A stretch of 64,000 nucleotides of DNA from Sipunculus nudus (lineage: Eukaryota > Annelida > Sipuncula > Golfingiida > Sipunculidae), in contig CM049308.1 of NCBI GenBank assembly GCA_026874595.1, positions 18,906,001 to 18,970,000 of the forward strand. The letters are read 5' to 3'. Made by a program: the position numbers and the translations under genes. Of the stretch, positions 222 through 63,183 are shown in pieces. The notes under the pieces are model-generated. The model searched no databases. It had not been told where the DNA came from and worked only from the letters and a program-made list of their open reading frames with translations. Every line of letters begins with the position of its first letter. The first letter of the stretch is position 1.

Positions 222-536
222 ATGAAGTCTATCATCAGAAAGTGTCCCCGCTCACAGCTTCACAAGCTGGAAAACAAGCTCAACAGGTCATGTGACCAGA
301 TAGAGGTGATGTGTGGAAGGGTCAATGACCTTCGCAGACGTTACAAACGAGCTCAAAACCATGGAAACAAGTGTGTGATGCGCAGCCTGAAAATGCAGCT
401 ACAGGTGTACCAAGGAGTGTGGTCAGTGTACCAGCACTGTGCCAGTCAGCAAGCTGCTGCTCTGATGCTGTTGGAGCTCAAGATGGCTGCTAGCCATGTA
501 GGTGGTGAGTCCTCACCAGCCAGGATGGAGGACTGA
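222..536 (+). CDS. Copy 1: 104-aa basic helical-hairpin protein of the stem-loop gene family (intact)
   Basis: Single-exon frame of 104 residues. A longer frame opens at 192, but the ATG at 222 is chosen because all copies share it and it follows a conserved leader. Residues 13-44 show a heptad pattern (a: L13, L20, I27, V34, Y41; d: L16, S23, L30 or M30, L37, A44). A short loop at 46-50 (NHGNK) leads to a second heptad stretch (M53, L56, L60, Y63, W67, Y70, A74, Q77, L81, L84, M88), so an antiparallel helical hairpin is predicted. The protein is strongly basic (18 K/R against 8 D/E in the consensus) with five cysteines (8, 24, 31, 51, 73). There is no signal peptide, membrane segment or histone motif. 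This copy has M30 and L86 where most have L30 and H86. I do not recognise the family, and its function is unknown. Confidence 0.75.
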   Translation: MKSIIRKCPRSQLHKLENKLNRSCDQIEVMCGRVNDLRRRYKRAQNHGNKCVMRSLKMQLQVYQGVWSVYQHCASQQAAALMLLELKMAASHVGGESSPARMED

Positions 537-560
537 TTGTCTTGGTCTTGTACCACCAAT

Positions 561-576
561 GGTTCTTGTCAGAACC
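561..576 (+). terminator. Histone-type 3' stem-loop of copy 1
   Basis: GGTTCTTGTCAGAACC: six perfect pairs around the loop TGTC, starting 24 bases after the TGA. Two G-C pairs at the base, two pyrimidine-purine pairs, C-G, a closing T-A, and T at loop positions 1 and 3 all fit the histone mRNA stem-loop bound by SLBP. ACCAAT precedes it and ACACA follows. The conserved CTCTAGATCTA follows at about +10. Confidence 0.72.
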
Positions 577-599
577 ACACATCCTCTAGATCTATAGCT

Positions 600-1218
600 T
601 TACTGCCACCACACAGTTTTATCTCTTTTTTATCCATTGTATATATGGTGATACCTCCAGTGTCTAAATGTTAGTACCCTCATGTGCTTTCATATTTAAC
701 AAATATTGTTAGACTTAATTAATATAATGTCTGAATTATTCTACTATATTTTGAACAGCATTTCTTTTTTTTGCATTATTTTCAATAAGGCTAATCGGGA
801 TCCCCTTTGTGAAAAATTAAAATAGATATGAATGTTTAGGACAAAGAAAAATAAAAACACTTTCTGTTCTCATGAGCACTAGTACACGGACAGAACCTTT
901 GTAATTTTATTTACATTTTTGCAGACCCCTGAACTCTTTATTTTATTTATCAAATCGGCTGATTCTCAGTGTTTTGTTAAATATGACATCAGTTGTAAGA
1001 TTTTTTGTCAGAAGAAGTAAATCTCAACATTAGCATTTCAGACATCCCTTGTATTTAGGTTCCATTTAATACCTCTCACGTTTTTCTTTTGCGTCTGATA
1101 AGATAACTTTAACTAGACCACAAGAGGCACATTGAAGTTTATTTCTTATACAAATAAACACTTTATCTGTTATGATAGAGAGAAGCATATTTAAATCATG
1201 ACCATTATTGTTAACGTG

Positions 1219-1251
<33 letters not shown>

Positions 1252-1789
1252 TTTACAAACGGTATACACATAATTTCGACATGCGGCCTGTGAAATCCGG
1301 TTTTGAGAGTGCACGCAAAATGGCAGCCCCATGAGTGGTTTCAAGAAACTGGGAGAAATAATCCTGTCAGGGTTCGATAAGGGTGAGGGGATGCGAATAG
1401 ACTCCGAAGACAGCGTTCAGGCGAGAATTTATCTGCGGAGTAAAACTGATGGCAAGAGGCAGTTGATCGTAAAAGTATGGAGTGGAATAACGCTTTTTTA
1501 CCACGCCCATATCCTCGAATTACAGCAGGAATATTGTTATATTTCTTTATTTTTTTTTATATTTTCCAAAATTGGAAATGTTAACGAGAATCTTTTCCTC
1601 CAGGGGAACATTAAACGGATTATAATTCATTTTGTTTCTTTTTTTAATATCAGGTATATATGATTATAGAAATATTGGATTTAATGGCGGAAATTGAGAG
1701 TGATCTACTGTATCACCTAATAAGGGGGGTACGGTATACTGTAGATAATGTCAATCATCTTCAAGATAAAATGGGCTCTAATTGATATG
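600..1789. other. Spacer between copies 1 and 2
   Basis: No gene is supported. The first ~80 bases still resemble the region downstream of other copies (TTTTATCCA, then a TATATG-GTGATACCTCC stretch). An (ATT)n tract lies at 1218-1250. Bases 1290-1530 resemble 44500-44730 on the opposite strand; both lie upstream of a family copy, and reading frames in both are interrupted. Confidence 0.6.
1218..1250. repeat. (ATT)n microsatellite
   Basis: About eleven uninterrupted ATT units, roughly 0.9 kb upstream of copy 2. Similar tracts recur upstream of most family copies. Confidence 0.9.
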
Positions 1790-2107
1790 ATTCCGTTTTT
1801 CACACCGTATTAATACGGAGTTCAATGAGGTTTTGAATCACTCAAGCAGAACCATCCTTAATCATCTCCATTAGTTAACGATCTCTCATGGGGAACATCC
1901 AAAGTCACTCAGGCATGAAGAGAACTACTCCCTAATAACTACTCACTCTGTGGTACTCATTATTGAGGATGCAGACCAGGGGAGAACTACTCATTATGAA
2001 ACTCATGTCACTAATGATATGTCATATGGATAAAGCAGGGATAAAACCTCCAGCATCATCACTCACCTTCAGTTTTCTCGTCAGTCTCACACAAGAGTAG
2101 TACAGAA
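1790..2107 (+). promoter_or_regulatory. Promoter and leader of copy 2
   Basis: ATAAAA at 2041-2046 and the initiator A at 2071 keep the family spacing (37 bases to the ATG at 2108). Near-identical to the copy 1 promoter, and it also shows the distal part: CACTCAAGCAGAACC, GTCACTCAGG, GAACTACTC, AACTACTCAC and GGTACTCATT. Confidence 0.55.
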
Positions 2108-2421
2108 ATGAAGTCTATCATCAGAAAGTGTCCCCCTCACAGCTTCAAAAGCTGGAAAACAAGCTCAACAGGTCATGTGACCAGATAGAGGTGATGTGTG
2201 GAAGGGTCAATGACCTTCGCAGACGTTACAAGCGAGCTCAAAACCATGGAAACAAGTGTGTGATGCGCAGCCTGAAAATGCAGCTACAGGTGTACCAAGG
2301 AGTGTGGTCAGTGTACCAGCACTGTGCCAGTCAGCAAGCTGCTGCTCTGACGCTTTTGGAGCACAAGATGGCTTCTAGCCATGTAGGTGGTGAGTCCTCA
2401 CCAGCCAGGATGGAGGATTGA
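2108..2421 (+). pseudogene. Copy 2: frameshifted member of the 104-aa family
   Basis: One G is missing near codon 10 (TGTCCCCCTCAC against TGTCCCCGCTCAC in copy 1), so the conserved ATG frame meets a TAG about 27 codons in. After the frameshift the family frame stays open to the usual TGA and keeps the hairpin residues, with T82 and S90 among the differences. An internal ATG at residue 30 could in principle start a short product lacking helix 1. The stem-loop of this copy is damaged too, which fits a decaying gene. Confidence 0.75.
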
Positions 2422-2445
2422 TTGTCTTGGTCTTGTACCACCAAT

Positions 2446-2461
2446 GGTTCTTGTCAGTACC
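2446..2461 (+). terminator. Damaged histone-type stem-loop of copy 2
   Basis: GGTTCTTGTCAGTACC: the right arm is AGTACC instead of AGAACC, so one stem pair is lost. The CTCTAGATCTA element follows normally. Confidence 0.6.
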
Positions 2462-2479
2462 ACACATCCTCTAGATCTA

Positions 2480-4029: not shown

Positions 4030-4494
4030 TATCAAGCGTGACAACAGCTGCTCAGCATGACCTGCTCATTATTACGGTACATAGTGTGGCGTAACTTCTA
4101 AAAGGGAGTGCCATTCTTTGCAATACAACAGCTGCTTATAGCATGACCTACTTTTTATACGGTACTCAGTGAGACGTATATTCTACAAGGAAAAACTACT
4201 CATTGACATTCCTCACGGAATTCACCTGAGCAGAACCCTCAATCAACAGCAAATGACTTTCCATTGGGATCAAACAAAGTCAGTTTACCTTGAACCATCC
4301 TGCTCAATAATAACTGCTCACTCTGTGTTAACCAGAATAGAGGATGCAGATCAGGGGAGAACTACTCAATGACATTCCTAACATTGAAACTCATGTCACT
4401 GATGATCTGTCATATGTGTACAGCAGGGATAAAACCTGCAGGATTACAGCTCACTTACAGTTTTCTTGTCTGTCTCACACAGGGTAGTACAGGG
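4030..4494 (+). promoter_or_regulatory. Promoter of the 5' fragment copy 3
   Basis: ATAAAA at 4429-4434 keeps the family spacing. Upstream are the ACTCA/TGCTCA words, and in 4033-4170 a degenerate ~95-bp duplication whose units begin with ACAACAGCTGCT and continue into CATGACCT. This promoter is more diverged than those of the intact copies. Confidence 0.5.
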
Positions 4495-4607
4495 AGGAAG
4501 TCTATCATCAGAAAGTGTCCCCGTTTACAGGTTCACAAGCTGGAAACTATGCCTTCTATTGAGGTGAAAATAATGAAGATTAAGTTCCACAACAAAACAC
4601 GGTAAGT
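4495..4607 (+). pseudogene. Copy 3: 5' fragment joined to a foreign tail with a GTAAGT site
   Basis: The start codon is AGG instead of ATG, and codons 2-17 (ending HKLE) are recognisable. After codon 17 the sequence leaves the family and runs about 60 bases to CGGTAAGTTAC, a consensus-like 5' splice site at 4602-4607. Copies 9 and 16 carry a related tail at a similar point and end at GTAAGT too, so the three form one subfamily. Either the promoter and first codons became exon 1 of a spliced gene, or a fusion relic was duplicated. No downstream exon is demonstrated. Confidence 0.6.
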
Positions 4608-5345: not shown

Positions 5346-5550
5346 ACGACACGTTGGAATGACTCACTCGATCCATTACATGATGCTCTGGCACACTCCA
5401 CTAGGTGGCGCTCCGGGGACTATACCAAGACGTCGACCATCACTTTGCAGACTGCACCCTGATTTTATCAGATTAAACTTTTCGAATATAAGATAACTCA
5501 TCATTCATTATTATATATATGTATATATGATACCGCACAAAATATAAGTA

Positions 5551-5660
5551 GGTGGTGAGTCCTCACCAGCCAGGATGGAGGACTGATTGTCTTGGTCTTG
5601 TACCACCAATGGTTCTTGTCAGAACCACACATCCTCTAGATCTATAGCTTTACTTTCACC
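5551..5660 (+). pseudogene. Isolated family 3' end (last ~12 codons, stop, stem-loop)
   Basis: Starts inside the codons for VGGESSPARMED, continues through TGA, the perfect stem-loop GGTTCTTGTCAGAACC (5611-5626) and CTCTAGATCTATAGC. It lacks a promoter or 5' coding part; about 950 bases of unrelated sequence separate it from the copy 3 fragment. A recombination between family 3' ends would explain its good preservation next to the decayed one at 5735. Confidence 0.75.
5611..5626 (+). terminator. Histone-type stem-loop in the isolated 3' end
   Basis: Perfect six-pair stem with loop TGTC, although no intact coding sequence precedes it. Confidence 0.6.
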
Positions 5661-5734
5661 AAAAAGTTGCATATAAAATGTCTCTCAGTGATTATCAGTA
5701 TTACCAAGTTTACCATATTTTCCAGAAGAAAACC

Positions 5735-6808: not shown

Positions 6809-7121
6809 ATGAAGTCTATCACCAGAAACATCCCCTTCACAGCTCCACAAGCTGGAAAACAAGCTCAACAGGTCATGTGACCAGATAGAGGTGCTGTGTG
6901 GAAGGGTCAGGGACCTTCGCAGACGTTACAAGCGTGCTGAAAACCATGGAAACAAGTGTGTGATGCGCAGCCTGAAGATGCAGTTACAGGTGTTCCAAGG
7001 AATATGCTCAATTTACCAGCACTGTGCCAGTCAGCAAGCTGCTGCTCTCATGCTGTTGGAGCATAAGATGGTTGCTAGCCATGTAGATGGTGAGTCCTCA
7101 CCAGCAAGGATGGAGGACTGA
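6809..7121 (+). pseudogene. Copy 4: frameshifted member of the 104-aa family
   Basis: Two bases are missing around codons 7-10 (AGAAACATCCCCTTCACAG), so the conserved ATG frame ends at a TGA after about 22 codons. The family frame is open again from residue 29 to the stop, with more substitutions than other copies (V33-R-D, KRAEN, LQVFQGICSIYQ, MVASHVDG). The stem-loop is still perfect. Confidence 0.75.
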
Positions 7122-7145
7122 TTGTCTTGGTCTTGTACCACCAAT

Positions 7146-7161
7146 GGTTCTTATCAGAACC
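7146..7161 (+). terminator. Histone-type stem-loop of copy 4
   Basis: GGTTCTTATCAGAACC: perfect six-pair stem, loop TATC, 24 bases after the stop. Confidence 0.68.
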
Positions 7162-8860: not shown

Positions 8861-9151
8861 GGTATAAAGTCACTCAAGCGAACACGCCCGTAACACGCCA
8901 AATTGTTGATGATCTTTCATGGAGAACACCAGAAATTCAGTCAAGCATGAGGAGTACTGCTCACTGATAACTGCTCACCCTGTGGTACTCATTAGGTAGG
9001 ACGGAGACCAGGGGAGAACTACTCACTGACGTTATCATTTAAAAACTCGCGTCACTGATGATTTATCATATGGATACAGCAGGGATAAAACCTGCAGAAT
9101 CAAGGCTCAACTTCAGTTTTCTCGTCAGTCTCACACAAGAGTAGTACAAAA
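8861..9151 (+). promoter_or_regulatory. Promoter and leader of copy 5
   Basis: ATAAAA at 9085-9090 and initiator A at 9115, 37 bases before the ATG. Clear tandem words at 8963-9030: TACTGCTCACTGATAACTGC, then CTCACCC, GGTACTCATT and GAACTACTCACTGACG. The distal CACTCAAGCG is at 8871. Confidence 0.62.
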
Positions 9152-9466
9152 ATGAAGTCTGTCATCAGAAAGTGTCCACGCTCACAGCTCCACAAGCTGG
9201 AAAACAAGCTCAACAGGTCATGTGACCAGATAGAGGTGCTGTGTGGAAGGGTCAATGACCTTCGCAGACGTTACAAGCGAGCTCAAAACCATGGAAACAA
9301 GTGTGTGATGCGCGGCCTCAAGATGCAGCTACAGGTGTACCAAGGAGTGTGGTCAGTGTACCAGCACTGCGCCAGTCAGCAAGCTGCTGCTCTGATGCTG
9401 TTGGAGCACAAGATGGCTGCTAGCCGTGTAGGTGGTGAGTCCTCACCAGCCAGGATGGAGGATTGA
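9152..9466 (+). CDS. Copy 5: 104-aa family protein (intact)
   Basis: Complete frame from the family ATG to TGA. Relative to the consensus it has V4, G55 (MRGLK) and R92; all heptad core residues and the five cysteines are kept. This is the cleanest plus-strand example: promoter, leader, frame and stem-loop are all undamaged. The inferred transcript, from about 9115 to just past 9506, would be roughly 400 bases, the size class of a core histone mRNA. The next family copy (6) points toward it. Function unknown. Confidence 0.78.
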   Translation: MKSVIRKCPRSQLHKLENKLNRSCDQIEVLCGRVNDLRRRYKRAQNHGNKCVMRGLKMQLQVYQGVWSVYQHCASQQAAALMLLEHKMAASRVGGESSPARMED

Positions 9467-9490
9467 TTGTCTTGGTCTTGTACCACCAAT

Positions 9491-9506
9491 GGTTCTTATC
9501 AGAACC
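9491..9506 (+). terminator. Histone-type stem-loop of copy 5
   Basis: GGTTCTTATCAGAACC with loop TATC, 24 bases after TGA, flanked by ACCACCAAT and ACACAT. The later element is ATCTAGATCTAAAG, one base different from most copies. Confidence 0.72.
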
Positions 9507-9619
9507 ACACATCATCTAGATCTAAAGCTTTGGTTTCACTGGACATTCAAACAAATGCCCTTGCCATTATTTTCTATCCAGTGTTTATATGTTGATATTT
9601 ATTACTGCTATAAGATATG

Positions 9620-11580: not shown

Positions 11581-11946
11581 CTATGATCTGTATGAAGCAA
11601 AAGCTAGATCTAGAGGATGTGTGGTTCTGACAAGAACCATTGTTGGTACAAGACCAAGACAATCAGTCCTCCATCCTGCAGCCATCTTGTGCTCCAACAG
11701 CATCAGAGCAGCAGCTTGCTGACTGGCGCAGTGCTGGTACACTGACCACACTCCTTGGTACACCTGTAGCTGCACCTTGAGGCTACGCATCACACACCTG
11801 TTTCCATGGTTTTGAGCTCGCTTGTAACGTCTGCGAAGGTCATTGACCCTTCCACACAGCACCTCTATCTGGTCACATGACTTGTTGAGTTTGTTTTCCA
11901 GCTTGTGGAGCTGTAAGTGGGGACATTTTCTGGTGATAGACTTCAT
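11581..11946 (-). pseudogene. Copy 6: family member with 31-base 3' deletion and altered tail
   Basis: Residues 1-90 follow the family (with T5, H10, L11, K22, R50, V58), then 31 bases covering SHVGGESSPA are deleted. The new frame misses the normal stop and runs through the stem-loop, ending after 121 residues at TGA 11581. The hairpin domain is therefore intact, but translation would cross the 3' processing signal. It could still be made, but I class it as damaged. Confidence 0.65.
11623..11638 (-). terminator. Histone-type stem-loop of copy 6
   Basis: Perfect stem GGTTCT/AGAACC, loop TGTC on the minus strand. It lies inside the extended frame of the damaged gene. Confidence 0.62.
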
Positions 11947-12579: not shown

Positions 12580-13257
12580 TAATAATAATAAAGTAATAAT
12601 AATAGTAAAAATAAAAATAATAATTAGAAATAGTCCTGTCCCTTTTTGCATTATTAGTTTAAAGATTAAACTGTTTATACGTTAGTTTTGATTTGAAAAA
12701 AAGTTTAATTTGGTTCACCCTTTTTAATTATATTTACTTTAAACACGGACATCATGGGATTTTTTTTACGTGTACGTAACTAAAATTGAGGCAATTATAA
12801 TAATAGACATGTGACCTGGAAGATATCTTCGTTCAAGATTTTTATTTATACATGATAATGATTATAAATAAACGTTTATATCAAGCGTACATTGAAATTA
12901 TATGATTAAATGTCTCTGAATAACACGCAGACTGGATAACATAAATGCTAAAAAGTGAAAATTACTCCTTAGAGGAATAGCATGTCCTTAAATCCTTGCG
13001 GTTTAAATACAACTCTTTACTTTGTGGTGTCAACATATTTCATTTTTTGTAAAGAAATCAACTTCAATTGGTTATAGTTAATTCAGTTAAATGTTCACTT
13101 ATCAAAGCAGTGAACGGGAGGTTTACCTAAACAGAGAGTAGGAGGCTTTAATTTGCCTGCTGGTCTAATAATATACTTAAACAAAGTGGGAATTATATAT
13201 TCAATGCAACAAAGAGTGTGATAACACATAACTGTTTAGTGAAAGTAAAGCTATAGA
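12261..13257. other. Spacer upstream of copy 6, homologous to 46470-47415
   Basis: Same order of landmarks as upstream of copy 12: a TACATGTTATAAT word, an (AAT)n tract at about 12538-12596, then GACATGTGACCTGGAA and the CATAACTGTTTAGTGAAAGT just before the next 3' end. This shows an old duplication of copy + spacer + next 3' end. Confidence 0.65.
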
Positions 13258-13325
13258 TCTAGAGGATGTGTGGTTCTGATAAGAACCATTGGTGGACCAA
13301 GACCAAGACGATCAGTCCTCCCCTG
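13258..13325 (-). pseudogene. Copy 7: isolated family 3' end
   Basis: The minus strand carries GAGGA, the stop region, the perfect stem-loop GGTTCTTATCAGAACC (13272-13287) and the CTCTAGATCTATAGC element. Homology breaks off abruptly at about 13325, where an ACGT-rich repeat begins, so coding part and promoter are gone. By comparison with 47415-47800 it is the remnant of the neighbour equivalent to copy 13. Confidence 0.7.
13272..13287 (-). terminator. Histone-type stem-loop in the isolated 3' end copy 7
   Basis: Perfect six-pair stem with loop TATC, without a gene. Confidence 0.55.
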
Positions 13326-36506: not shown

Positions 36507-36773
36507 CTATCGGTACATGGAATCACGTTTCATTTGAAGCATTTTAGCAGTAAATTCATCCTGGTACACTGCCCACACTCCTTGGAACACCTGTAGCTGC
36601 ATCTTGAGGCTGCGCATCACACACTTGTTTCCATGGTTTTGAGCTCGCTTGTAACGTCTGCGAAGGTCATTGACCCTTCCGCACAGCACCTGTATGTGGT
36701 CACATGACCTGTTAAGCTTTTTTTCAAGCTTGTGGACCTGTGAGCGGGGACACTTCCTGGCGATAGACTTCAT
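36507..36773 (-). pseudogene. Copy 8: family member with a foreign C-terminus
   Basis: Residues 1-71 follow the family (A5, V13, K18, H26, Q28, F63 and A68 variants) up to VYQ. Then homology ends and the frame closes with DEFTAKMLQMKRDSMYR and TAG, 88 residues in all. The second helix is cut at its middle, and there is no stem-loop or CTAGATCTAG element, so a normal transcript end is missing. Confidence 0.65.
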
Positions 36774-36958
36774 CTCTGTACTACTCTAGTGTGAGACTGA
36801 CGAGAAAACTGAAGTTTAGCCATGATGCTGCAGGTTTTATCCCTGCTGTACCCATATGACAGATCATCAGTGACACGAGTTTCAATGTGAGGAATGTCAG
36901 TGAGTAGTTCTCCCCTGGTCTGCATCCTCCGAACCGAGTACCACAGAGTGAGCAGTGT
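36774..36958 (-). promoter_or_regulatory. Truncated promoter of copy 8
   Basis: TTTTAT at 36835-36840 and initiator A at 36810 are in the family positions. Homology stops at about 36958 (GAGTGAGCAGTG), so the distal words are missing. Confidence 0.5.
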
Positions 36959-38282: not shown

Positions 38283-38378
38283 TGGAGAAAAAAAAGTTCG
38301 CGTCACACAAACTGGAGTCTCCAATAACAAATTTGTCATCTCGTCACCCACATACCCATTTATGAACGGGAAGAGCTG
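38283..38378 (+). repeat. Gene-fragment relic repeat, copy C (partial)
   Basis: Matches minus-strand 5030-5120. In one frame it reads VRVTQTGVSNN then FVISSPTYPFMNG, against VRVTQTGISNN and CVISPLTYPLMDG there. Beyond 38380 no clear match continues. Confidence 0.5.
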
Positions 38379-40473: not shown

Positions 40474-40565
40474 ACTTACCATTTCTTCTTGTTTGGACTT
40501 TTTTACGCCTCGCTGGAAGATTATGGACTTAATGCGTTTGGACACTTTCTGTTGATAGACATCAT
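40474..40565 (-). pseudogene. Copy 9: 5' fragment with the copy-3-type tail
   Basis: ATG at 40565, then MSINRKCP-type codons of the family; the frame ends at TAA after 14 codons. The following ~55 bases match the foreign tail of copies 3 and 16 and end at GTAAGT (40479-40474, minus strand). The helical domain is absent. Confidence 0.6.
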
Positions 40566-40850
40566 TTCTGTATTTCTTTTTTGTAAGACTGATAAGAAAA
40601 ATGAAGTTGAGCCATGGTTTTATCCCTGTTGTGTATGTATGACAGATCATCAGTGATATGAGTTTCAATATGAGAATAGTCAATGAGTAGTTCTCCCCTG
40701 GTCTGGATCCTCCATACTGAGTACCACAGAGTGAGCAGTTATTAGTGATCAGTTCTCTTCATGTCCTACTGACTTTGTATTTTACCAATGAGAGATCATC
40801 AATTACTCTTTGACTGCGAAATATTCCGCTTGAGTAATTTAATACCTCTT
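40566..40850 (-). promoter_or_regulatory. Promoter of copy 9
   Basis: TTTTAT at 40618-40623. The GAGTACCACAGAGTGAGCAG block, AGTAGTTCTCCCCTGGTCTG and a distal GCTTGAGTAATTTAATACCT are recognisable, so the family promoter is well kept although the gene is not. Confidence 0.5.
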
Positions 40851-43500: not shown

Positions 43501-43532
43501 GGTAAAAGGAAAGCTAGATCTAGAGGATGTGT

Positions 43533-43548
43533 GGTTCTGATAAGAACC
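43533..43548 (-). terminator. Histone-type stem-loop of copy 11
   Basis: Minus strand GGTTCTTATCAGAACC, loop TATC, 24 bases after the stop, followed by CTCTAGATCTAGC. Confidence 0.72.
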
Positions 43549-43572
43549 ATTGGTGGTACAAGACCAAGACAA

Positions 43573-43887
43573 TCAGTCCTCCATCCTGGCTGGTGAGGAC
43601 CCATTACCTACATGGTTAGCAGCCATCTTGTGCTCCAACAGCATCAGAGCAGCAGCTTGCTGACTTGCACAGTGCTGGTACACTGACCACACTCCTTGGT
43701 ACACCTGTAGCTGCATCTTGAGGCTGCGCATCACACACTTGTTTCCATGGTTTTGAGCTCGCTTGTAACGTCTGCGAAGGACATTGACCCTTCCACACAG
43801 CACCTCTATCTGGTCACATGACCTGTTGAGCTTGTTTTCCAGCTTGTGGAGCTGTGAGCGGGGACACTTTCTGATGATAGACTTCAT
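43573..43887 (-). CDS. Copy 11: 104-aa family protein (intact)
   Basis: Complete frame with V36, N91, N95 and G96 as differences. V36 falls outside the predicted a/d core. Promoter, leader and stem-loop are undamaged. It is the first of the leftward cluster at 43-52 kb; copy 12 lies 1.9 kb upstream in the same direction. Function unknown. Confidence 0.78.
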   Translation of the reverse strand: MKSIIRKCPRSQLHKLENKLNRSCDQIEVLCGRVNVLRRRYKRAQNHGNKCVMRSLKMQLQVYQGVWSVYQHCASQQAAALMLLEHKMAANHVGNGSSPARMED

Positions 43888-44250
43888 TTCTGTACTACTC
43901 TTGTGTGAGACTGACGAGAAAACTGAAGTTGAGCCGTGATGCTGCAGCTTTTATCCCTGCTGTATCCATATGACAGATCATCAGTGACATGAGTTTCAAT
44001 ATGAGGAATGTCAGTGAGCAGTTCTCCCGTGGTCTGCATCCTCCATTCTGAGTACCACAGAGTGAGCAGTTATTACTGAGCAGGTCTCTTCATGCCTGAC
44101 TGACTTTGAGTGTTCCTCATGAGAGATCGTCGACTAATGGAGATGATTAAGGATGGTTCTGCTGAAGTGATTCAATACCTCATTGACCTTATTATAACCA
44201 CGAATTGAAATTCGGAAAAAGATCAATTAGAGTCCATCTTATCATGAAGA
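43888..44250 (-). promoter_or_regulatory. Promoter and leader of copy 11
   Basis: TTTTAT at 43949-43954; initiator A at 43924. Repeated words on the plus strand: GAGCAGTTCTCCC, GAGTACCACAGAGTGAGCAG and TGAGCAGGTCTC. GCTGAAGTGATTC replaces the usual GCTTGAGTGATTC distally. Confidence 0.6.
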
Positions 44251-45700: not shown

Positions 45701-45758
45701 GATAAAACAAGAAAGGACAACTGTATGGTGAAAGTAAAGCTAGATCTAGAGGATGTGT

Positions 45759-45774
45759 GGTTCTGACAAGAACC
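45759..45774 (-). terminator. Histone-type stem-loop of copy 12
   Basis: Perfect stem, loop TGTC on the minus strand. Confidence 0.72.
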
Positions 45775-45798
45775 ATTGGTGGTACAGGACGAAGACAA

Positions 45799-46113
45799 TC
45801 AGTCCTCCATCCTGGCTGGTGAGGACTCACCGCCTACATGACTAGCAGCAATCTTGTGCTCCAACAGCATCAGAGCAGCAGCTTGCTGACTTGCACAGTG
45901 CTGGTACACTGACCACACTCCTTGGTACACCTGTAGCTGCATCTTGAGGCTGCGCATCACACACTTGTTTCCATGGTTTTGAGCACGCTTGTAACGTCTG
46001 CGAAGGTCATTGACCCTTCCACACAGCACCTCTATCTGGTCACATGACCTGTTGAGCTTGTATTCCAGCTTGTGAAGCTGTGAGCGGGGACACTTTCTGG
46101 TGATAGACTTCAT
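45799..46113 (-). CDS. Copy 12: 104-aa family protein (intact)
   Basis: Complete frame with T5, Y18 and I88. I88 occupies the last predicted core position and is conservative. Its promoter contains the left end of the 13.8-kb duplication breakpoint. Function unknown. Confidence 0.78.
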   Translation of the reverse strand: MKSITRKCPRSQLHKLEYKLNRSCDQIEVLCGRVNDLRRRYKRAQNHGNKCVMRSLKMQLQVYQGVWSVYQHCASQQAAALMLLEHKIAASHVGGESSPARMED

Positions 46114-46470
46114 TTCTGTACTACTCTTGTGTGAGACTGACGAGAAAACTGAAGTTTAGCCATGATGCTGAAGGTTTTATCCCTGCTGTATCCATAAGAC
46201 AGATCATCAGTGACACCAGGTTCAATGTGAGGAATGTCAGTGAGTAGTTCTCCCCTGGTCTGCATCCTCCATACTCAGTACCACAGAATGAGCAGTTATT
46301 AATGAGCAGTTCACGCCTGAGTGACTTTCGATGTTCCCATGAGAGATCGTCAACAAATGGAGATGATTAAGGATGGTTCTGCTTGAGTGATTCAATACAT
46401 CATTGACCTCATTATAAGCACGTTGTGAAATACGGAATAATATTAAATAGAGTCCATCTTATCTAGAATT
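46114..46470 (-). promoter_or_regulatory. Promoter and leader of copy 12
   Basis: TTTTAT at 46175-46180; initiator A at 46150. Distal part from about 46293 is the same sequence as the distal promoter of copy 18 from 60063. Confidence 0.6.
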
Positions 46471-46765: not shown

Positions 46766-47435
46766 ATGGTAATAATAATAATAATTAGAAATAGTCCTAA
46801 CCTTTTTTGCATTATTAGGTTAAAGTTTAAATTGTTTATAAGTTAGTTTTGAATTTGAAATAAAGTTTAATTTGTTTCGTCCTTTTTAACCACATTTACT
46901 TTGAACACGGACATGATGGGATTTTTTTTCGTGTACGGAACTAAAATTGAGGCAATTATGATAATAGACATGTGACCTGGAACTTATCTTCATTCAAGAT
47001 TTTTATTTATACATGATAATGATTATAAATAAACGTTTATATCAAACGTATATTGAAATTATATAATTAAATGTCTCTCAATAACACGCAGACTGGATAA
47101 CATAAATGCTAAAAAGTGATAAATACTCCTAAGAGGAATAGCGTGTCCTATAATCCTTGTGGTTTAAACACAACTATCTACTTTGTGGTGTCAACATATT
47201 TCATTTTTTCAATGAAATCAACTTCAATTTGGTCATATTTAATTCAGTTAAATGTTCTCTTATCAAATGCAGTGAACGGGAGTTTTACATAAACAGAGAG
47301 TACGAGGCTTTAATTTGCCTGCTGGTCTAAATATATTTAAACAAAATGGGAATTATATATTCAGTGCAAAAAAAGAGTGTGATATGATAATACATAACTG
47401 TTTAGTGAAAGTGAAGCTAGATCTAGAGGATGTGT

Positions 47436-47451
47436 GGTTCTGACAAGAACC
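47436..47451 (-). terminator. Histone-type stem-loop of copy 13
   Basis: Perfect stem, loop TGTC on the minus strand. Confidence 0.72.
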
Positions 47452-47475
47452 ATTGGTGGTACAAGACCAAGACAA

Positions 47476-47784
47476 TCAGTCCTCCATCCTGGCTGGTGAG
47501 GACTCAACACCTACATGGCTAGCAGCCATCTTGTGCTCCAACAGCATCAGAGCTTGCTGACTGGCACAGTACTGGTACACTGACCACACTCCTTGGTACA
47601 CCTGTAGCTGCATCTTGAGGCTGCGCATAACACACTTGTTTCCATGGGTTTGAGCACGCTTGTAACGTCTGCGAAGGTCATTGACCCTTCCACACAGCAC
47701 CTCTATCTGGTCACATGACCTGTTGAGCTTGTTTTCCAGCTTGTGGAGCTGTGAGCGGGGACACTTTCTGATGATAGACTTCAT
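47476..47784 (-). CDS. Copy 13: 102-aa family protein (intact, two-alanine deletion)
   Basis: Complete frame; two of the three alanines at 78-80 are missing in frame, with T46, Y72 and V95. The deletion shifts the heptad phase late in helix 2, so the end of the hairpin may pair differently. Its duplicate is copy 19. Confidence 0.76.
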   Translation of the reverse strand: MKSIIRKCPRSQLHKLENKLNRSCDQIEVLCGRVNDLRRRYKRAQTHGNKCVMRSLKMQLQVYQGVWSVYQYCASQQALMLLEHKMAASHVGVESSPARMED

Positions 47785-48080
47785 TTCTGTACTGCTCTTG
47801 TGTGAGACTGACGAGAAAATTGAAGTTGAGACGTGATGCCGCAGGTTTTATCTCTGCTGTATCCATATGACAGATCATCAGTGACATGAGTTTCTAAGTA
47901 GTAAACGTCAATGAGTAGTTCTCCCCTGGTCTGCATCCTCCATACTGAGTACCACAGAGTGAGCAGTTATTAGTGAGCAGGTCTCATCATTCCTAACTAA
48001 CTTATGATGTTCCCCTCGAGGATTCATCAACTACTCCATGATTACGGAAGTTAATGCTTGAGTGGCTTTAGAGTTCATTA
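47785..48080 (-). promoter_or_regulatory. Promoter and leader of copy 13
   Basis: TTTTAT at 47846-47851; initiator A at 47821. The GAGTACCACAGAGTGAGCAG and TTCTCCCCTGGTCTGC words are kept; distal part diverged. Confidence 0.58.
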
Positions 48081-49895: not shown

Positions 49896-49911
49896 GATCT
49901 AGAGGATGTGT

Positions 49912-49927
49912 GGTTCTGACGAGAACC
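49912..49927 (-). terminator. Histone-type stem-loop of copy 14
   Basis: GGTTCTCGTCAGAACC: perfect stem; loop CGTC, so the usual T at loop position 1 is C. Shared with copy 20. Confidence 0.66.
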
Positions 49928-49951
49928 ATTGGTGGTACAAGACCAAGACAA

Positions 49952-50266
49952 TCAGTCCTCCATCCTGGCTGGTGAGGACTCACCACCTACATGGCTAGCA
50001 GCCATCTTGTGCTCCAACAGCATCAGAGCAGCAGCTTGCTGACTGGCACAGTGCTGGTACACTGACCACACTCCTTGGTACACCTGTAGCTGTATCTTCA
50101 GACTGCGCATCACACACTTGTTACCATGGTTTTGAGCACGCTTGTAACGTCTGCGAAGGTCATTGACCCTTCCACACAGCACCTCTATCTGATCACATGA
50201 CCTGTTGAGCTTGTTTTCCAGCTTGTGGAGCTGTGAGCGGGGACACTTTCTAGTGATAGACTTCAT
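49952..50266 (-). CDS. Copy 14: 104-aa family protein (intact)
   Basis: Complete frame with T5 and I58; otherwise consensus, and identical in protein to its duplicate copy 20. The core promoter has lost about 16 bases between the TATA-like box and the distal words. Function unknown. Confidence 0.78.
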   Translation of the reverse strand: MKSITRKCPRSQLHKLENKLNRSCDQIEVLCGRVNDLRRRYKRAQNHGNKCVMRSLKIQLQVYQGVWSVYQHCASQQAAALMLLEHKMAASHVGGESSPARMED

Positions 50267-50600
50267 TTCTGTACTACTCTTGTGTAAGACTGACGAGAAA
50301 ACTGAAGTTGAGCCGTGATGCTGCAGGTTTTATCCCTGCTGTGACATCAGTGACGTGAGTTTCAATGTGAGAAAAGTCAGTGAGTAGTTCTCCCCTGGCC
50401 TGCGTCCTCCATACTGAGTACCACAGAGTGAGCAATTATTAGTGAGCAGGTACGTCACACCTGCCTGATTTTGGGTGTTCCCCTTGAGAGATCGTTAACT
50501 GATGGAAATGATTAAATAATGTTCTGCTTGAGTAATTCAGTACCTCATTAACCTCATTATAACCATTGGGTGAAATACGGAATAATATTAATTAGAGTCC
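50267..50600 (-). promoter_or_regulatory. Promoter and leader of copy 14
   Basis: TTTTAT at 50328-50333; initiator A at 50303. The TCCATATGACAGAT segment is missing, bringing the distal words closer to the TATA-like box. Confidence 0.58.
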
Positions 50601-51828: not shown

Positions 51829-51844
51829 GGTTCTGATAAGAACC
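51829..51844 (-). terminator. Histone-type stem-loop of copy 15
   Basis: Perfect stem, loop TATC; follows a damaged gene. The next element is altered to CTCTAGATCTTGC. Confidence 0.6.
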
Positions 51845-51849
51845 ATTAG

Positions 51850-52098
51850 TGGTACAAAAGTAGCAGCTTGCTGACTTGCACAGTGCTGTTAAACTGACCA
51901 CACTCCTTGGTACACCTGTAGCTGCATCTTGAGGCCACGCATCACACACTTGTTTCCATGGTTTTGAGCTCGCTTGTAACGTCCGCGAAGGTCATTGACC
52001 CTTCCACACATCACCTCTATCTGGTCACATGACCTGTTGAGCTTGTTTTCCAGTATGTGGAGCTGTGAGCGGGGACACTTTCTGGTGATAGACTTCAT
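51850..52098 (-). pseudogene. Copy 15: family member with a nonsense codon and 3' deletion
   Basis: Family residues 1-69 (I15, M30, G39 and G55 variants), then Tyr70 is TAA. A few codons further, after GCTGCT, the rest of the coding region through the stop is deleted, bringing the sequence directly to TTGTACCACTAATGG and the stem-loop. Helix 2 would be half missing. Confidence 0.75.
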
Positions 52099-52260
52099 TT
52101 CTGTACTTCTCTTGTGTGAGCCTGACGAGAAAACTGAAGTTGAGCCGTGATGCTGCAGGTTTTATCTCTGCAGTACCCGTTGACAGAGAAATGAGCAGTT
52201 CTCCCAACTCGACACCGTAAAGTGAGCAGTTCTTACTGAGCAGTTGAAGTAACGCTTCAC
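52099..52260 (-). promoter_or_regulatory. Truncated promoter of copy 15
   Basis: TTTTAT at 52160-52165. Upstream words are reduced to two or three TGAGCAGTTCT-like repeats, and homology ends near 52250. Confidence 0.45.
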
Positions 52261-56215: not shown

Positions 56216-56254
56216 TTGCTCAAATGCACCAATTCAATAATTTCATAATTCGCA

Positions 56255-56665
56255 ACTTGTATGAAGGAAGATCTTTATAGAAGAGCCTTCCAACACTACA
56301 CAATCGATGATGCTTTACGAGGGAAGTTGACAGACAAAATACACTATTTATTATTTTTAACAGACTTTCTTTGTATAGGAGTAACTCAGAGTCACCGGGT
56401 ACTGTCTCGATGTACTGGAACACCACCGATTATTCCTGGAGAAACGCAGACTGGTATCTGGCATCCCCAGTGACCAATGTCTGATCTGCGTGGTCACTCA
56501 ACACCCACAAAACAAAATACAGACGCTGAATGCCCTTGCCCAAGGGCTTCACTCTCAGACACTGGCGGTATGTTCACCTCCCCGACGACCAGAGATTTGA
56601 CCGACCACTTGAGAGTGACAGGAATAGTCATATAAAAAATACGAAAAACAAATCTCGATGAGAAA
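56255..56665 (+). repeat. Gene-fragment relic repeat, copy B
   Basis: MKEDLYRR, then an acceptor-like TTTTTAACAG at 56354-56363, then the open reading LSLYRSNSESPGTVSMYWNT. Further on, CACCTCCCCGACGACCAGAG (56577-56596) matches TACCTCCCCGACGACCAGAG of copy A. Lies immediately downstream of the copy 16 fragment. Confidence 0.55.
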
Positions 56666-56976
56666 GACAGTTGCCTTATTTTTTTAACTCTGAAAGGTAT
56701 CCTGCAGTATGTATCAAACTATTCACTTGACACGTCAGTCAACTCCTGAGGACATTGTATGTGCCAAATGGATTTCATAACAATCTATATAATTGAAAAA
56801 TTCCCTGCATGATAAATACATGCTGGGTTTTTCATCGCTTTGCAATAATAACTATTTTTATCGTATTTGTGATGACTTAGGACTAGAACAGTCGTCCGCC
56901 CTGCTTAAGATAAATAACACGGTGGTTAGATATACGTAAAATTTAGTAAAAAGATCTTAAATGTACTTTATTTGTA
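56666..56976. other. Stretch between relic B and copy 16
   Basis: No gene. It lies where an intron would be if the copy 16 GTAAGT joined a downstream exon, but relic B is in the opposite orientation. Confidence 0.35.
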
Positions 56977-57083
56977 ACTTACCACGTCTTGTTGCGGGCT
57001 ACCTTCTTTAAACCTCAGTGGAAAAGCATAAATTCCAGCTTGTGAAGCTGTGAGTGGGGACACTTTCTGATGATAGCCTCCAT
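56977..57083 (-). pseudogene. Copy 16: 5' fragment with the copy-3-type tail
   Basis: ATG at 57083, then E2, A3 and family codons to HKLE (17), after which the sequence changes to the shared tail. The ATG frame ends at TGA (57015); the homologous sequence runs on to GTAAGT (56982-56977). In one other frame the tail reads AGIYAFPLRFKEGSPQQDV, similar to AGNYAF and PQQN in copy 3 and to FQRGVKKSKQEEM in copy 9. Confidence 0.62.
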
Positions 57084-57420
57084 TTCTGTACTACTCTTGT
57101 GTGACCCTGTCGAGAAAACTGAAGTTGAGACGTGATGCTGCAGGTTTTATCCCTGCTGTATCCATATGACCGATCATCAGTGACGTGAGTTTCAATATGA
57201 GGATTGTCAGTGAGTAGTTCTCTCCTGGGCTGCATCCTCCTATACTGAGTGCCACAGAGTGAGCAGTTATTACTGAGCAGTTCTCGTCATGCTTGACTGA
57301 CTTTGTATGTTACCCATGAGAGATCATCAGGTACTGTGTGATTATGGAACGTCCGCTTGAGCAATTTAATACCTCATTATCTCCGCCTTGGTGGTTTGTC
57401 TGTCACTGAACTAGATTTCC
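57084..57420 (-). promoter_or_regulatory. Promoter of copy 16
   Basis: TTTTAT follows CTGCAGG near 57140-57150 in the usual place. AGTAGTTCTCTCCTGGGCTG, GAGTGCCACAGAGTGAGCAG and a distal GCTTGAGCAATTTAATACCT are present, as at copy 9. Confidence 0.5.
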
Positions 57421-58500
57421 CAAAAACAAAAATAATGAACTAATTTCCAGGAAACTTTTTGGCGCAGGCGAAGGAGGGGTGGAGAGGTGGCTTTGACTCA
57501 CAAGGACTCCATTATTTTCATACGGATCCGGATTAAAGGGCGGCTCGAGCAGCAAAGGTTTGCCTGGGTGGATGGAGTGAGTAGTCCTCCCCTAAATACT
57601 GAGAACCACATAGTAAGCAATTATTAGTTAGCATTACTCTCATGCCTAACTTATTATATGTATTCAGCATGAGAGATCGTCAACTGCAGTATGTTTACGG
57701 AGCTGATGAAGAAAGTTAAGATGCATTTTCAAATCATTCCAGTAAGGATTCCAGACAGAGCCAAATCGTGTGCATTGTAGTCTGGCACGACCTTCCCATT
57801 AAGCCTGCAGAGCGTTCATCCTTGGTGGGGCCCACAGTGACTAATCTCACCGCATCAAACAAATATCCGGCCGCAAAACAAGGTCAAGAATGAAACAAAA
57901 TTTATTAAAAATATTTGTAATATGAATATAAATATATGGGTTCTTGATTAAAGTTATTAGAATTTTGTACAGGTAATACAATTTGACGTTACAGGTTGTA
58001 GTATTAGCATACGGAATGACTTTTACCGTAAACTTTTATTGGTGTAAAAGCCCAATCCACTAGAGCCACAGCGCATAAAACACAGCGCATAGGACTCAGT
58101 GCACCGCCTGGGCTAAAACACCTTTCAATCAGGAGATACCCTGACTGACTTGACCCCACAAATGTAATACATGTTCCCGCTGGCTGAAACCTTGTTTGGA
58201 ATCTGTCGCGCATGCGCAAATCCGGACCTCCGGTCACACGATATTGTAAACAGACACACGTGGACTGTATTAACTAAAACGCAAACCATTATAAGGTATT
58301 AAACAGCCCAAAGGGAGATCCTAAGACCGTGTCCTGGGATGTTTTTTTTTTTTTTTTACCCCTGGAAACTTTTGTATACAGCAAAAGTGAACTGATAGTG
58401 AGAAATAATAGGCATGATAATGCTACTGATTGTTTCCCTTTAAGCGCGATACTGAATGTTACATATGATAGTTCATGAAGATAGCAAAATATAACCACTG
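57421..58500. other. Block shared with copy 9 surroundings, then unassigned sequence
   Basis: 57440-57700 resembles 40900-41130, including a second family promoter fragment (57575-57690). The rest, including frames near 58004-58237, is not recognised. Confidence 0.45.
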
Positions 58501-58539
58501 GATAAAAACAGAAAGGCAGGTACAAGTGTACGGTGAAAG

Positions 58540-58623
58540 GAAAGCTAGATCTGGAGGATGTGTAGTTCTGACAAGAACAATTGGTGGTACAAGACCAAGA
58601 CAATCAGTCCTCCATCCCGGCTG
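58540..58623 (-). pseudogene. Copy 17: isolated family 3' end
   Basis: Stop region, stem-loop and CTCCAGATCTAGC element only. On the far side, homology jumps at about 58623 straight into sequence like 50750 (upstream spacer of a family copy), so coding region and promoter were deleted together. Confidence 0.65.
58564..58579 (-). terminator. Damaged stem-loop of copy 17
   Basis: Minus strand TTGTTCTTGTCAGAACT: the G-C base pairs at the foot of the stem are lost. Confidence 0.5.
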
Positions 58624-59500: not shown

Positions 59501-59524
59501 AAAAGCTAGATCTAGAGGATGTGT

Positions 59525-59540
59525 GGTTCTGACAAGAACC
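59525..59540 (-). terminator. Histone-type stem-loop of copy 18
   Basis: Perfect stem, loop TGTC on the minus strand. Confidence 0.72.
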
Positions 59541-59564
59541 ATTGGTGGTACAAGACCAATACAA

Positions 59565-59879
59565 TCAGTCCTCCATCCTGGCTGGTGAGGACTCCCCACC
59601 TACATGACTAGCAGCCATCTTGTGCTCCAACAGCATCAGAGCAGCAGCTTGCTGACTGGCACAGTGCTGGTACACTGACCACACTCCTTGATACACCTGT
59701 ATCTGCATCTTGAGGCTGCGCATCACACACTTGTTTCCATGGATTTGAGCTCGCTTGTAACGTCTGCGAAGGTCATTGACCCTTCCACACAGCACCTCTA
59801 TCTGGTCACATGACCTGCTGAGCTTGTTTTCCAGCTTGTGAAGCTGTGAGCGGGGACACTTTCTGATGACAGACTTCAT
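59565..59879 (-). CDS. Copy 18: 104-aa family protein (intact)
   Basis: Complete frame with V4, S21, I46 and I60. I60 is a conservative core change; I46 sits in the predicted loop. Its promoter is a hybrid made by the tandem duplication: proximal part its own, distal part from copy 12. Function unknown. Confidence 0.78.
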   Translation of the reverse strand: MKSVIRKCPRSQLHKLENKLSRSCDQIEVLCGRVNDLRRRYKRAQIHGNKCVMRSLKMQIQVYQGVWSVYQHCASQQAAALMLLEHKMAASHVGGESSPARMED

Positions 59880-60190
59880 TTCTGTACTACTCTTGTGTGA
59901 GACTGACGAGAAAACTGAAGTTGAGACGTGATGCTGCAGGTTTTATCCCAGCTGTATCCATATGACAGATCATCAGTGACGTGAGTTTCAATGTGATGAA
60001 TGTCAGTGAGTAGTTCTCCCCTGGTCTGCATCCTCCATACTGAGTACCATAGAGTGAGCAGTTATTACTGAGCAGTTCACGCCTGAGTGACTTTCGATGT
60101 TCCCATGAGAGATCGTCAACAAATGGAGATGATTAAGGATGGTTCTGCTTGAGTGATTCAATACATCATTGACCTCATTATAAGCACGTT
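59880..60190 (-). promoter_or_regulatory. Hybrid promoter and leader of copy 18
   Basis: TTTTAT at 59941-59946; initiator A at 59916. Left of about 60063 it differs from copy 12 at several bases (ACTGAGTACCATAGAGTG against ACTCAGTACCACAGAATG); right of it the two are identical. Confidence 0.6.
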
Positions 60191-60502: not shown

Positions 60503-61207
60503 TAATAATAATAATAATAATAATAAAAGTAATAATAATGGTAATAATAATAATAATTAGAAATAGTCCTAACCTTTTTTGCATTATTAGGTTAAAGTTT
60601 AAATTGTTTATAAGTTAGTTTTGAATTTGAAATAAAGTTTAATTTGTTTCGTCCTTTTTAACCACATTTACTTTGAACACGGACATGATGGGATTCTTTT
60701 TCGTGTACGGAACTAAAATTGAGGCAATTATGATAATAGACATGTGACCTGGAACTTATCTTCATTCAAGATTTTTATTTATACATGATAATGATTATAA
60801 ATAAACGTTTATATCAAACGTATATTGAAATTATATAATTAAATGTCTCTCAATAACACGCAGACTGGATAACATAAATGTTAAAAAGTGATAAATACTC
60901 CTAAGAGGAATAGCGTGTCCTATAATCCTTGTGGTTTAAACACAACTATCTACTTTGTGGTGTCAACATATTTCATTTTTTCAATGAAATCAACTTCAAT
61001 TTGGTCATATTTAATTCAGTTAAATGTTCTCTTATCAAATGCAGTGAACGGGAGTTTTACATAAACAGAGAGTACGAGGCTTTAATTTGCCTGCTGGTCT
61101 AAATATATTTAAACAAAATGGGAATTATATATTCAGTGCAAAAAAAGAGTGTGATATGATAATACATAACTGTTTAGTGAAAGTGAAGCTAGATCTAGAG
61201 GATGTGT

Positions 61208-61223
61208 GGTTCTGACAAGAACC
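61208..61223 (-). terminator. Histone-type stem-loop of copy 19
   Basis: Perfect stem, loop TGTC on the minus strand. Confidence 0.72.
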
Positions 61224-61247
61224 ATTGGTGGTACAAGACCAAGACAA

Positions 61248-61556
61248 TCAGTCCTCCATCCTGGCTGGTGAGGACTCAACACCTACATGGCTAGCAGCCA
61301 TCTTGTGCTCCAACAGCATCAGAGCTTGCTGACTGGCACAGTACTGGTACACTGACCACACTCCTAGGTACACCTGTAGCTGCATCTTGAGGCTGCGCAT
61401 AACACACTTGTTTCCATGGGTTTGAGCACGCTTGTAACGTCTGCGAAGGTCATTGACCCTTCCACACAGCACCTCTATCTGGTCACATGACCTGTTGAGC
61501 TTGTTTTCCAGCTTGTGGAGCTGTGAGCGGGGACACTTTCTGATGATAGACTTCAT
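61248..61556 (-). CDS. Copy 19: 102-aa family protein (intact; duplicate of copy 13)
   Basis: Same two-alanine deletion and T46, Y72, V95 as copy 13. One further change, Q64 to L, between core positions Y63 and W67. Confidence 0.76.
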   Translation of the reverse strand: MKSIIRKCPRSQLHKLENKLNRSCDQIEVLCGRVNDLRRRYKRAQTHGNKCVMRSLKMQLQVYLGVWSVYQYCASQQALMLLEHKMAASHVGVESSPARMED

Positions 61557-61850
61557 TTCTGTACTGCTCTTGTGTGAGACTGACGAGAAAATTGAAGTTG
61601 AGACGTGATGCCGCAGGTTTTATCTCTGCTGTATCCATATGACAGATCATCAGTGACATGAGTTTCTAAGTAGTAAACGTCAATGAGTAGTTCTCCCCTG
61701 GTCTGCATCCTCCATACTGAGTACCACAGAGTGAGCAGTTATTAGTGAGCAGGTCTCATCATTCCTAACTAACTTATGATGTTCCCCTCGAGGATTCATC
61801 AACTACTCCATGATTACGGAAGTTAATGCTTGAGTGGCTTTAGAGTTCAT
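61557..61850 (-). promoter_or_regulatory. Promoter and leader of copy 19
   Basis: TTTTAT at 61618-61623; initiator A at 61593. Essentially identical to copy 13. Confidence 0.58.
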
Positions 61851-62091
61851 TACCTGGCCTTATCATCCTCAGTAATTGTCCGTTTGTTTGCTTGAATGTT
61901 TGTCTCAAAGATCATCACCTACAACAGATGAGGGATGGCTCTGTTTGAGTGATATTATGCATCATCAATCTCATTATAAACGGGAATGTGAAGCGTTTAC
62001 AGAAATCACATCAGATCTTCATAAACACCAACACATTTTCGTAATGAGCGGAAATAACTTCATTCCTATCTTTTAGTCTTCTATCTTTTAG
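61851..62091. other. Spacer between copies 19 and 20 with the deletion scar
   Basis: At about 62010 (AATCACATCAGATCTTC) the sequence jumps from the equivalent of 48248 to that of 49103. Confidence 0.75.
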
Positions 62092-62220
62092 TGCAAGGCA
62101 CTCTCCATGGCTCAGATGGGGTGTTCGCATGTCAGTAGTGGAGGAAACCGAGAACCCGAAGGAAACGATCGACCTTCGACGGACAACTACAACCCACTCT
62201 CATATAGCCATGCCACAAAT
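62092..62220 (-). mobile_element. SINE tail (duplicate of 49176-49312)
   Basis: Duplicated passively with the 13.8-kb segment. Confidence 0.6.
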
Positions 62221-62810
62221 GTTATTGAAATATATAAATGAATAATGTTAATATAGGTATAATATATTGCATTTGTCTTCCTGACGAACAAACAACCGAA
62301 CGAGGCTCATGACCAAAATGGCTGACTGATTGATTATGTGGAAGAGAAAATGTTTATTTTCATAGAAGGTGTCAATTAAGCACGAATTTCAATACTCTTG
62401 GTTTATTCTGTATGTGGGTGCAGGTCCTTAACACGAAGTGGGCGTGGTGCTGGTGCTCTGCTTGCTCGTTGCTAGGTGTTCTGGAGCTAGCTTGGGAAGG
62501 CGTCTTGGATCTCTTTGCGCTTGGCTTTGTGTACCATCGACAAATATCTGAGGGAGCCAATGCGGGCTCCGGCTTGCTAATCCCTGACACAACCTTTTTC
62601 TTGCATTCGTTCGTTCGGTTAAGTTAGTACTACCTTACGGCTCTACCAAAATATAGTATATTAATGAAAGAATAAAACTGTGCATTAAACGGGGAATAAA
62701 GGGCTAGATGTGGCCTCAAAGAAAAATATTGTAAAATTGACAAGATTATTATCACCGAAAGAACTGATTTTTATGACATTTTATATGCAAATGTTTGATG
62801 AAAGTTAAGC
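62221..62810. other. Spacer, duplicate of 49313-49895
   Basis: Carries the same overlapping unassigned frames. No gene is supported. Confidence 0.4.
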
Positions 62811-62828
62811 TAGATCTAGAGGATGTGT

Positions 62829-62844
62829 GGTTCTGACGAGAACC
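62829..62844 (-). terminator. Histone-type stem-loop of copy 20
   Basis: Perfect stem with loop CGTC, as in copy 14. Confidence 0.66.
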
Positions 62845-62868
62845 ATTGGTGGTACAAGACCAAGACAA

Positions 62869-63183
62869 TCAGTCCTCCATCCTGGCTGGTGAGGACTCAC
62901 CACCTACATGGCTAGCAGCCATCTTGTGCTCCAACAGCATCAGAGCAGCAGCTTGCTGACTGGCACAGTGCTGGTACACTGACCACACTCCTTGGTACAC
63001 CTGTAGCTGTATCTTCAGACTGCGCATCACACACTTGTTACCATGGTTTTGAGCACGCTTGTAACGTCTGCGAAGGTCATTGACCCTTCCACACAGCACC
63101 TCTATCTGATCACATGACCTGTTGAGCTTGTTTTCCAGCTTGTGGAGCTGTGAGCGGGGACACTTTCTAGTGATAGACTTCAT
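62869..63183 (-). CDS. Copy 20: 104-aa family protein (intact; duplicate of copy 14)
   Basis: Protein identical to copy 14. Promoter, leader and stem-loop are duplicated with it, so it should be expressed in the same way if copy 14 is. Confidence 0.78.
   Translation of the reverse strand: MKSITRKCPRSQLHKLENKLNRSCDQIEVLCGRVNDLRRRYKRAQNHGNKCVMRSLKIQLQVYQGVWSVYQHCASQQAAALMLLEHKMAASHVGGESSPARMED

Follow-up and report, generated by a model that had tools for sequence, protein, structure and literature searches.

Can the 3′ end of histone messenger RNA (mRNA) serve a gene that does not encode a histone? The question is raised by a 64-kb window of Sipunculus nudus DNA (the window being the whole stretch that was analysed; GC content 0.37, N-free), in which an open reading frame (ORF) scan finds nine intact members of one gene family (two on +, seven on −), each encoding 104 amino acids (aa) except two of 102 aa. 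A first-pass annotation had proposed that the transcripts of this multicopy family end in histone-type stem-loops. Our analysis suggests that the family is not one of histones and that the histone stem-loop/SLBP pathway probably generates and regulates the 3′ ends of its mRNAs.

As that annotation had described, a perfect six-pair stem, GGTTCT-NNNN-AGAACC, begins 24 nucleotides (nt) past the TGA stop codon in all nine intact copies. Across the 16 family sites, the loops are TGTC, TATC or CGTC and ACACA follows the stem (16/16), both as first reported for the intact copies; CCAAT precedes the stem except in two decayed copies, which have ACAAT at 11638 and CTAAT at 51844. A T on the 5′ side and an A on the 3′ side extend the predicted stem to 7 bp, the seventh pair being U–A; the Rfam consensus has A before the stem. 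The CCAAT/ACACA flanks otherwise agree with the Rfam flanks ccAAA/ACcaA, with U for A just 5′ of the stem and small 3′ differences. RNA folding placed the hairpin in all three copies tried.

The stem-loop observation is correct and goes well beyond chance. The window holds 17 matches to GGTTCTNNNNAGAACC at up to two mismatches, 14 of them exact, where 1.89 are expected and the maximum over 100 shuffles is 7; all lie within the gene family except one at 28548, which carries two mismatches. A strict pattern (paired GGYYYT/ARRRCC, T at loop position 3, AA before and AC after) occurs at 14 sites and in none of 150 first-order Markov simulations, and a wider 'core' pattern is counted 28 times, corresponding to 14 palindromic sites on both strands, with 0.05 expected. 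Besides the 150 simulated windows, our control for chance was the absence of other matches in the window to the Rfam model of the histone 3′ untranslated region stem-loop, RF00032. This model has 14 matches at E ≤ 10 in the 64 kb, every one in the gene family, with scores of 20.1–27.6 bits and a best E of 0.0012 (calculated for both strands of the 64 kb and the full set of 4227 Rfam families); it misses both mutated family stems.

The stem-loop sits at the end of what looks like a compact transcription unit. All nine intact copies carry GATAAAA (T at −66) and, 29 nt further on, an initiator-like TTCA(G/A)TT (A at −37). Neither GATAAAA (45 occurrences, both strands counted) nor TTCAGTT (30) is rare in the window, and the evidence therefore lies in their fixed spacing and conservation, not in the words themselves. 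A transcript starting at the initiator-like A and ending after ACACA would be 391–397 nt long; the ORF forms one exon, and there may be an intron upstream of the predicted start. Of the features noted in the first pass, the short leader and the transcript of about 400 bases are supported as predictions, and the one-exon ORF and the clustering hold, with nine ORFs in the window. None of the nine intact copies has a poly(A) hexamer inside the conserved block.

The limits of this block are visible in the alignments. A profile in 20-nt bins over seven copies, from which 61556 and 63183 are omitted as near duplicates of other copies, shows pairwise identity of 0.89–0.99 between −40 and +380, a span that runs from the predicted start to ~24 nt beyond the hairpin. 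Outside the block, identity is 0.70–0.90 in the 160 nt upstream, 0.64 at +380–400 and mostly 0.3–0.55 beyond, and the local alignments of many copy pairs end between ~+372 and +396, 16–40 nt past the stem. Among seven non-redundant intact copies, no column varies in the stem (0/12) or in ACACA (0/5), one varies in the next 13 bases and two of four vary in the loop; the same copies vary at 8 of 39 fourfold sites and at 36 of 312 positions of the whole coding sequence. In classical histone genes, a purine-rich downstream element pairs with U7. A different stretch of ~18 nt is conserved after the loop here, and the conserved ACACATCCTCTAGATCTA lies roughly where the purine-rich element would be expected; these bases may be a lineage-specific downstream element that replaces it. 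Such an outline would suit a gene in which the stem-loop and a short downstream element are the last signals required, which is a match and not proof.

The coding sequence is under purifying selection. In the seven non-redundant copies, 38 distinct changes from the majority comprise 18 silent, 20 replacing and no stop changes; the same base changes placed at random would give 10.1 silent changes (P = 0.002) and 2.7 stops (P of none, 0.05). Nei–Gojobori omega is 0.08–0.70 in 34 of 36 pairs, the remaining two being one identical pair and one without a silent change. Third-position GC content of the intact ORFs is 0.59–0.63, compared with 0.37 for the window.

Sequence comparison indicates that the encoded protein (consensus isoelectric point 9.85, 12 kDa) is not a recognisable histone, in agreement with the first-pass annotation: no histone model is among the Pfam matches (E up to 10 for three copies and up to 1 for nine sequences), and no Pfam or NCBIfam match exceeds its curated cut-off. 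Nor did structure prediction reveal a histone fold. An AlphaFold2 prediction made with nine sequences contains two long helices, residues 9–47 and 50–96 (mean predicted local distance difference test score 80.9; predicted template modelling score 0.56), and the layout of the helices in this hairpin resembles, in our judgement, neither a histone fold nor a winged helix. Two sub-threshold similarities were rejected as coiled-coil resemblance, namely Pfam ZapB (8/9 sequences, best E 0.0087; 15.8–16.8 bits in three copies against a cut-off of 31.5) and NCBIfam WbuZ (E 0.0082 and 0.034; cut-off 299.7 bits). The fold matches in the PDB, among them ESCRT-III, LSD1 tower and PI3K iSH2, resemble helical hairpins of a generic kind, and no sequence relatives were found there.

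Relatives elsewhere are few. Two protein searches over 5.8 billion sequences, in which 3 and 33 candidates were scored, gave one relative, P0001, of 104 aa and 89% identity on a 750-base contig. A viral-contig candidate (L001; 36% over residues 5–48), which lies in GC-rich DNA, was judged a chance match once 401 bases had been inspected. A pattern search of bacterial and archaeal genomes gave 126 matching stretches, none of them confirmed, and a DNA pattern of the loop with its flanks found nothing in viral contigs or in bacterial or archaeal genomes; records of the window's own genome may be absent from what was searched.

From these features we infer the following course of events. A multicopy family of one-exon genes would encode a basic, two-helix, non-histone protein of ~104 residues. 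RNA polymerase II would start 29 nt past the TATA-like GATAAAA box, ~37 nt upstream of the ATG; SLBP would bind the message at the histone-type stem-loop 24 nt past the stop codon, and the message would be cut ~5 nt after the stem (ACACA) in place of polyadenylation. If SLBP binding and a cut at the loop do substitute for a poly(A) tail, the family mRNA would therefore be co-controlled with histone mRNAs, and made, translated and destroyed jointly with them. We lean towards a natural non-histone animal family with non-polyadenylated mRNAs ending at an SLBP-bound histone stem-loop, possibly with a non-purine downstream element that recruits the cleavage machinery.

The closest comparison is with metazoan replication-dependent histone genes (H1, H2A, H2B, H3 and H4). 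They share with the window family a one-exon ORF, a short predicted leader, a TATA-like box and clustered multicopy genes, as well as a 6-bp stem with a 4-nt loop, AC after it, a position near the stop codon and a unit without a poly(A) hexamer. The window protein, in contrast, is not a recognisable histone, the third stem pair is U–A and U precedes the stem. Further differences, together with several properties of the copies themselves, weigh against our proposal. The usual histone loop is of the UUUC/UUUA type, whereas most copies have G at loop position 2 and two have C at position 1. The Rfam search to which the first-pass annotation had pointed was divided in its outcome: RF00032 matches occur in the gene family only, and every score is below the curated gathering cut-off of 34 bits. 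Folding energies of three copies (64–65 nt) are ordinary (z = −0.71, −1.27 and −1.17); because the folds are not unusually stable, the case rests on the match in sequence and structure, on position and on repetition, and not on energy. The 3′ boundary of the conserved block is not uniform, with some pairs alignable to +549 and the pair 222/46113 to ~+1030 with gaps. An AAAGA-type purine-rich element, sought within 60 nt after the loop with AAAGA-like motif words, is absent at all 16 sites, so that of the classical animal histone 3′ signal one expected part, the downstream element, is missing.

We do not regard this absence as fatal, because only some histone genes of the bivalve Lucina pectinata are reported to have a purine-rich element near the loop and those of Caenorhabditis elegans have a conserved AATCC at that place. 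Excerpts of the Lucina report describe a stem-loop near the stop codon in all histone genes and a purine-rich element close by in some only (PMC6210712); those genes encode histones, and the window family shares their stem-loop near the stop. In the C. elegans histone genes, according to excerpts of that account, a conserved AATCC element occupies the putative U7 site after the hairpin, and a poly(A) signal is also conserved (PMC1924863). The window family is alike in having a histone-type hairpin and then a short conserved element, with no purine-rich element named in those excerpts; it differs in that no shared poly(A) signal is seen and the protein is non-histone. The canonical S-phase histone genes of Hydractinia, again as excerpted, have both stem-loop and purine-rich element and are without a poly(A) signal (PMC5011920).

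The missing purine-rich element also favours a different account, in which the SLBP-type loop is real and the mRNAs are polyadenylated, the loop serving stability, translation or localisation, or in which there are dual 3′ ends, at the loop in dividing cells and otherwise at a poly(A) site. Each of the 16 sites does have AATAAA or ATTAAA in the 600 nt downstream, another point against our proposal, and dual 3′ ends are, from excerpts, the topic of a paper on histone H2A.X mRNA (PMC7807067). The hexamers lie 121–576 nt away in intact copies (among up to five per site), and their positions vary between copies, except in recent duplicates and for a 119/121-nt position shared by 13287, 47451 and 61223. 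Because these positions differ and identity drops within 20–40 nt past the loop, no family-wide poly(A) site is seen, and we consider polyadenylation rather unlikely.

It is also conceivable that the hairpin arose by chance, or for another factor, in one ancestral gene and was copied along as the family was amplified. Because the copies are all related, the 14 sites cannot be counted as independent events, and the sub-threshold Rfam scores and ordinary folding energies fit such an origin. So does the behaviour of the decayed copies, which counts against our reading: of the 7 decayed copies or fragments in which the site is present, 5 keep the stem, and because most of them keep it, decay cannot separate the loop from the gene. 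A broken stem in two of these seven (2446 and 58579) versus none of the nine intact copies would occur by chance with a probability of ~0.18, the numbers being too few. The invariance of the stem (0/12, with ~1.4 expected at the coding-sequence rate) is likewise weak evidence, coming from few and related copies. A chance hairpin nevertheless has to contend with the absence of the strict pattern from 150 simulated windows, with flanks, loop T3 and a position just past the stop codon that fit together, and with a conserved block that ends shortly after the hairpin; we regard it as very unlikely.

That the units form a mobile or satellite-like repeat whose ORF is a relict, as many truncated fragments in both orientations, recent duplication 13–14 kb apart and well conserved units beside 3′ flanks unalignable in most pairs might suggest, is most improbable given the excess of silent changes, the lack of stops among 38 changes (P = 0.05) and omega below 1 in intact copies, and Pfam scans of ten other window ORFs show no transposase, no search having been aimed at terminal inverted repeats of the unit.

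The proposed histone-type end would belong to a working gene family with a history of duplication and decay (Table 1). Three recent duplicate pairs (46113/59879, 47784/61556 and 50266/63183, by ATG) are 97–99% identical over ~2 kb and lie 13–14 kb apart. Four near-complete copies are broken, and there are seven further 5′ or 3′ fragments of 90–400 bases; smaller family pieces lie near 5.8, 41.0–41.1, 41.8–42.0 and 57.6 kb. Between 13.3 and 43.5 kb the family is present as fragments only.

Table 1. Intact and decayed members of the family in the window, with the span of each unit.
Feature	Span	Strand	ATG	Coding sequence	Stem-loop	Remarks
Intact copy 1	185..581	+	222	222-536	561-576	104 aa; transcript start and end putative
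Intact copy 2	9115..9511	+	9152	9152-9466	9491-9506	
Intact copy 3	43528..43924	-	43887	43573-43887	43533-43548	
Intact copy 4	45754..46150	-	46113	45799-46113	45759-45774	
Intact copy 5	47431..47821	-	47784	47476-47784	47436-47451	102 aa
Intact copy 6	49907..50303	-	50266	49952-50266	49912-49927	loop CGTC
Intact copy 7	59520..59916	-	59879	59565-59879	59525-59540	recent duplicate of copy 4
Intact copy 8	61203..61593	-	61556	61248-61556	61208-61223	102 aa; recent duplicate of copy 5
Intact copy 9	62824..63220	-	63183	62869-63183	62829-62844	coding sequence identical to copy 6
Decayed copy	2122..2461	+			2446-2461	frame broken near start; stem mutated
Decayed copy	6837..7161	+			7146-7161	frame broken near start; stem-loop intact
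Decayed copy	11623..11946	-			11623-11638	frame lost past ~residue 91; stem-loop intact
Decayed copy	51829..52187	-			51829-51844	without 3′ part of coding sequence; stem-loop intact
5′ fragment	4267..4546	+				followed by ~1 kb of other sequence, then 3′ fragment 5548-5669
3′ fragment	5548..5669	+			5611-5626	stem-loop intact
3′ fragment	13230..13321	-			13272-13287	best RF00032 match, 27.6 bits
5′ fragment	36561..36956	-				promoter and first 71 codons
5′ fragment	40540..40800	-				mostly promoter
5′ fragment	57033..57378	-				mostly promoter
3′ fragment	58440..58623	-			58564-58579	stem mutated

Other repeated sequence adjoins some family pieces. The segment 4889-5333, which separates the two fragments (5′ and 3′) of a decayed copy, recurs at 56244-56683 (76–80%) and partly at 38296-38380 (81%), and is possibly an inserted repeat element. 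At 41011-42487, two ~650-bp copies that are 97% alike each carry short promoter pieces of the family, and the stretch between them recurs at 39352-39532 (98%). The window also contains a tandem array at 22667-26909 (unit ~800 bp, about five copies, roughly 88–90% alike) and another at 35373-36286 (234-bp unit, 3.9 copies, 93% match), in the latter of which two − strand ORFs (323 and 202 aa) overlap in different frames. A − strand ORF at 17895-18383 matches the NNMT/PNMT/TEMT methyltransferase family (Pfam E 5.8e-24) over profile positions 122–237 of 261 only and is possibly one exon of a gene. No tRNA genes were found in the 64 kb. Sub-threshold RF02504 matches on the − strand at 12941-13086 and 47102-47251 (25.8 and 19.4 bits; cut-off 60) are probably due to chance, in A+T-rich DNA that is itself duplicated.

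Our search of the open-access literature, judged by titles and the beginnings of abstracts, found no non-histone gene family with a stem-loop 3′ end, which is no proof of novelty. Excerpts of published work describe replication-dependent histone mRNAs as the only known animal protein-coding mRNAs in which a stem-loop replaces poly(A) (PMC6303110, PMC2642717; similarly PMC12775136), and a 2009 paper, also as excerpted, calls the loop unique to histone mRNAs and states that there is no evidence for Slbp on non-histone RNAs (PMC2781718). If our proposal is true, the histone-type 3′ end would no longer be exclusive to histones, and a second kind of protein would share the histone-mRNA machinery. 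The family would offer natural variants of the loop and of the downstream element with which to probe what SLBP and the cleavage machinery require. It would also mean that S-phase control of mRNA can be borrowed by other genes, and would point to a protein whose supply has to keep pace with DNA replication or that eggs store.

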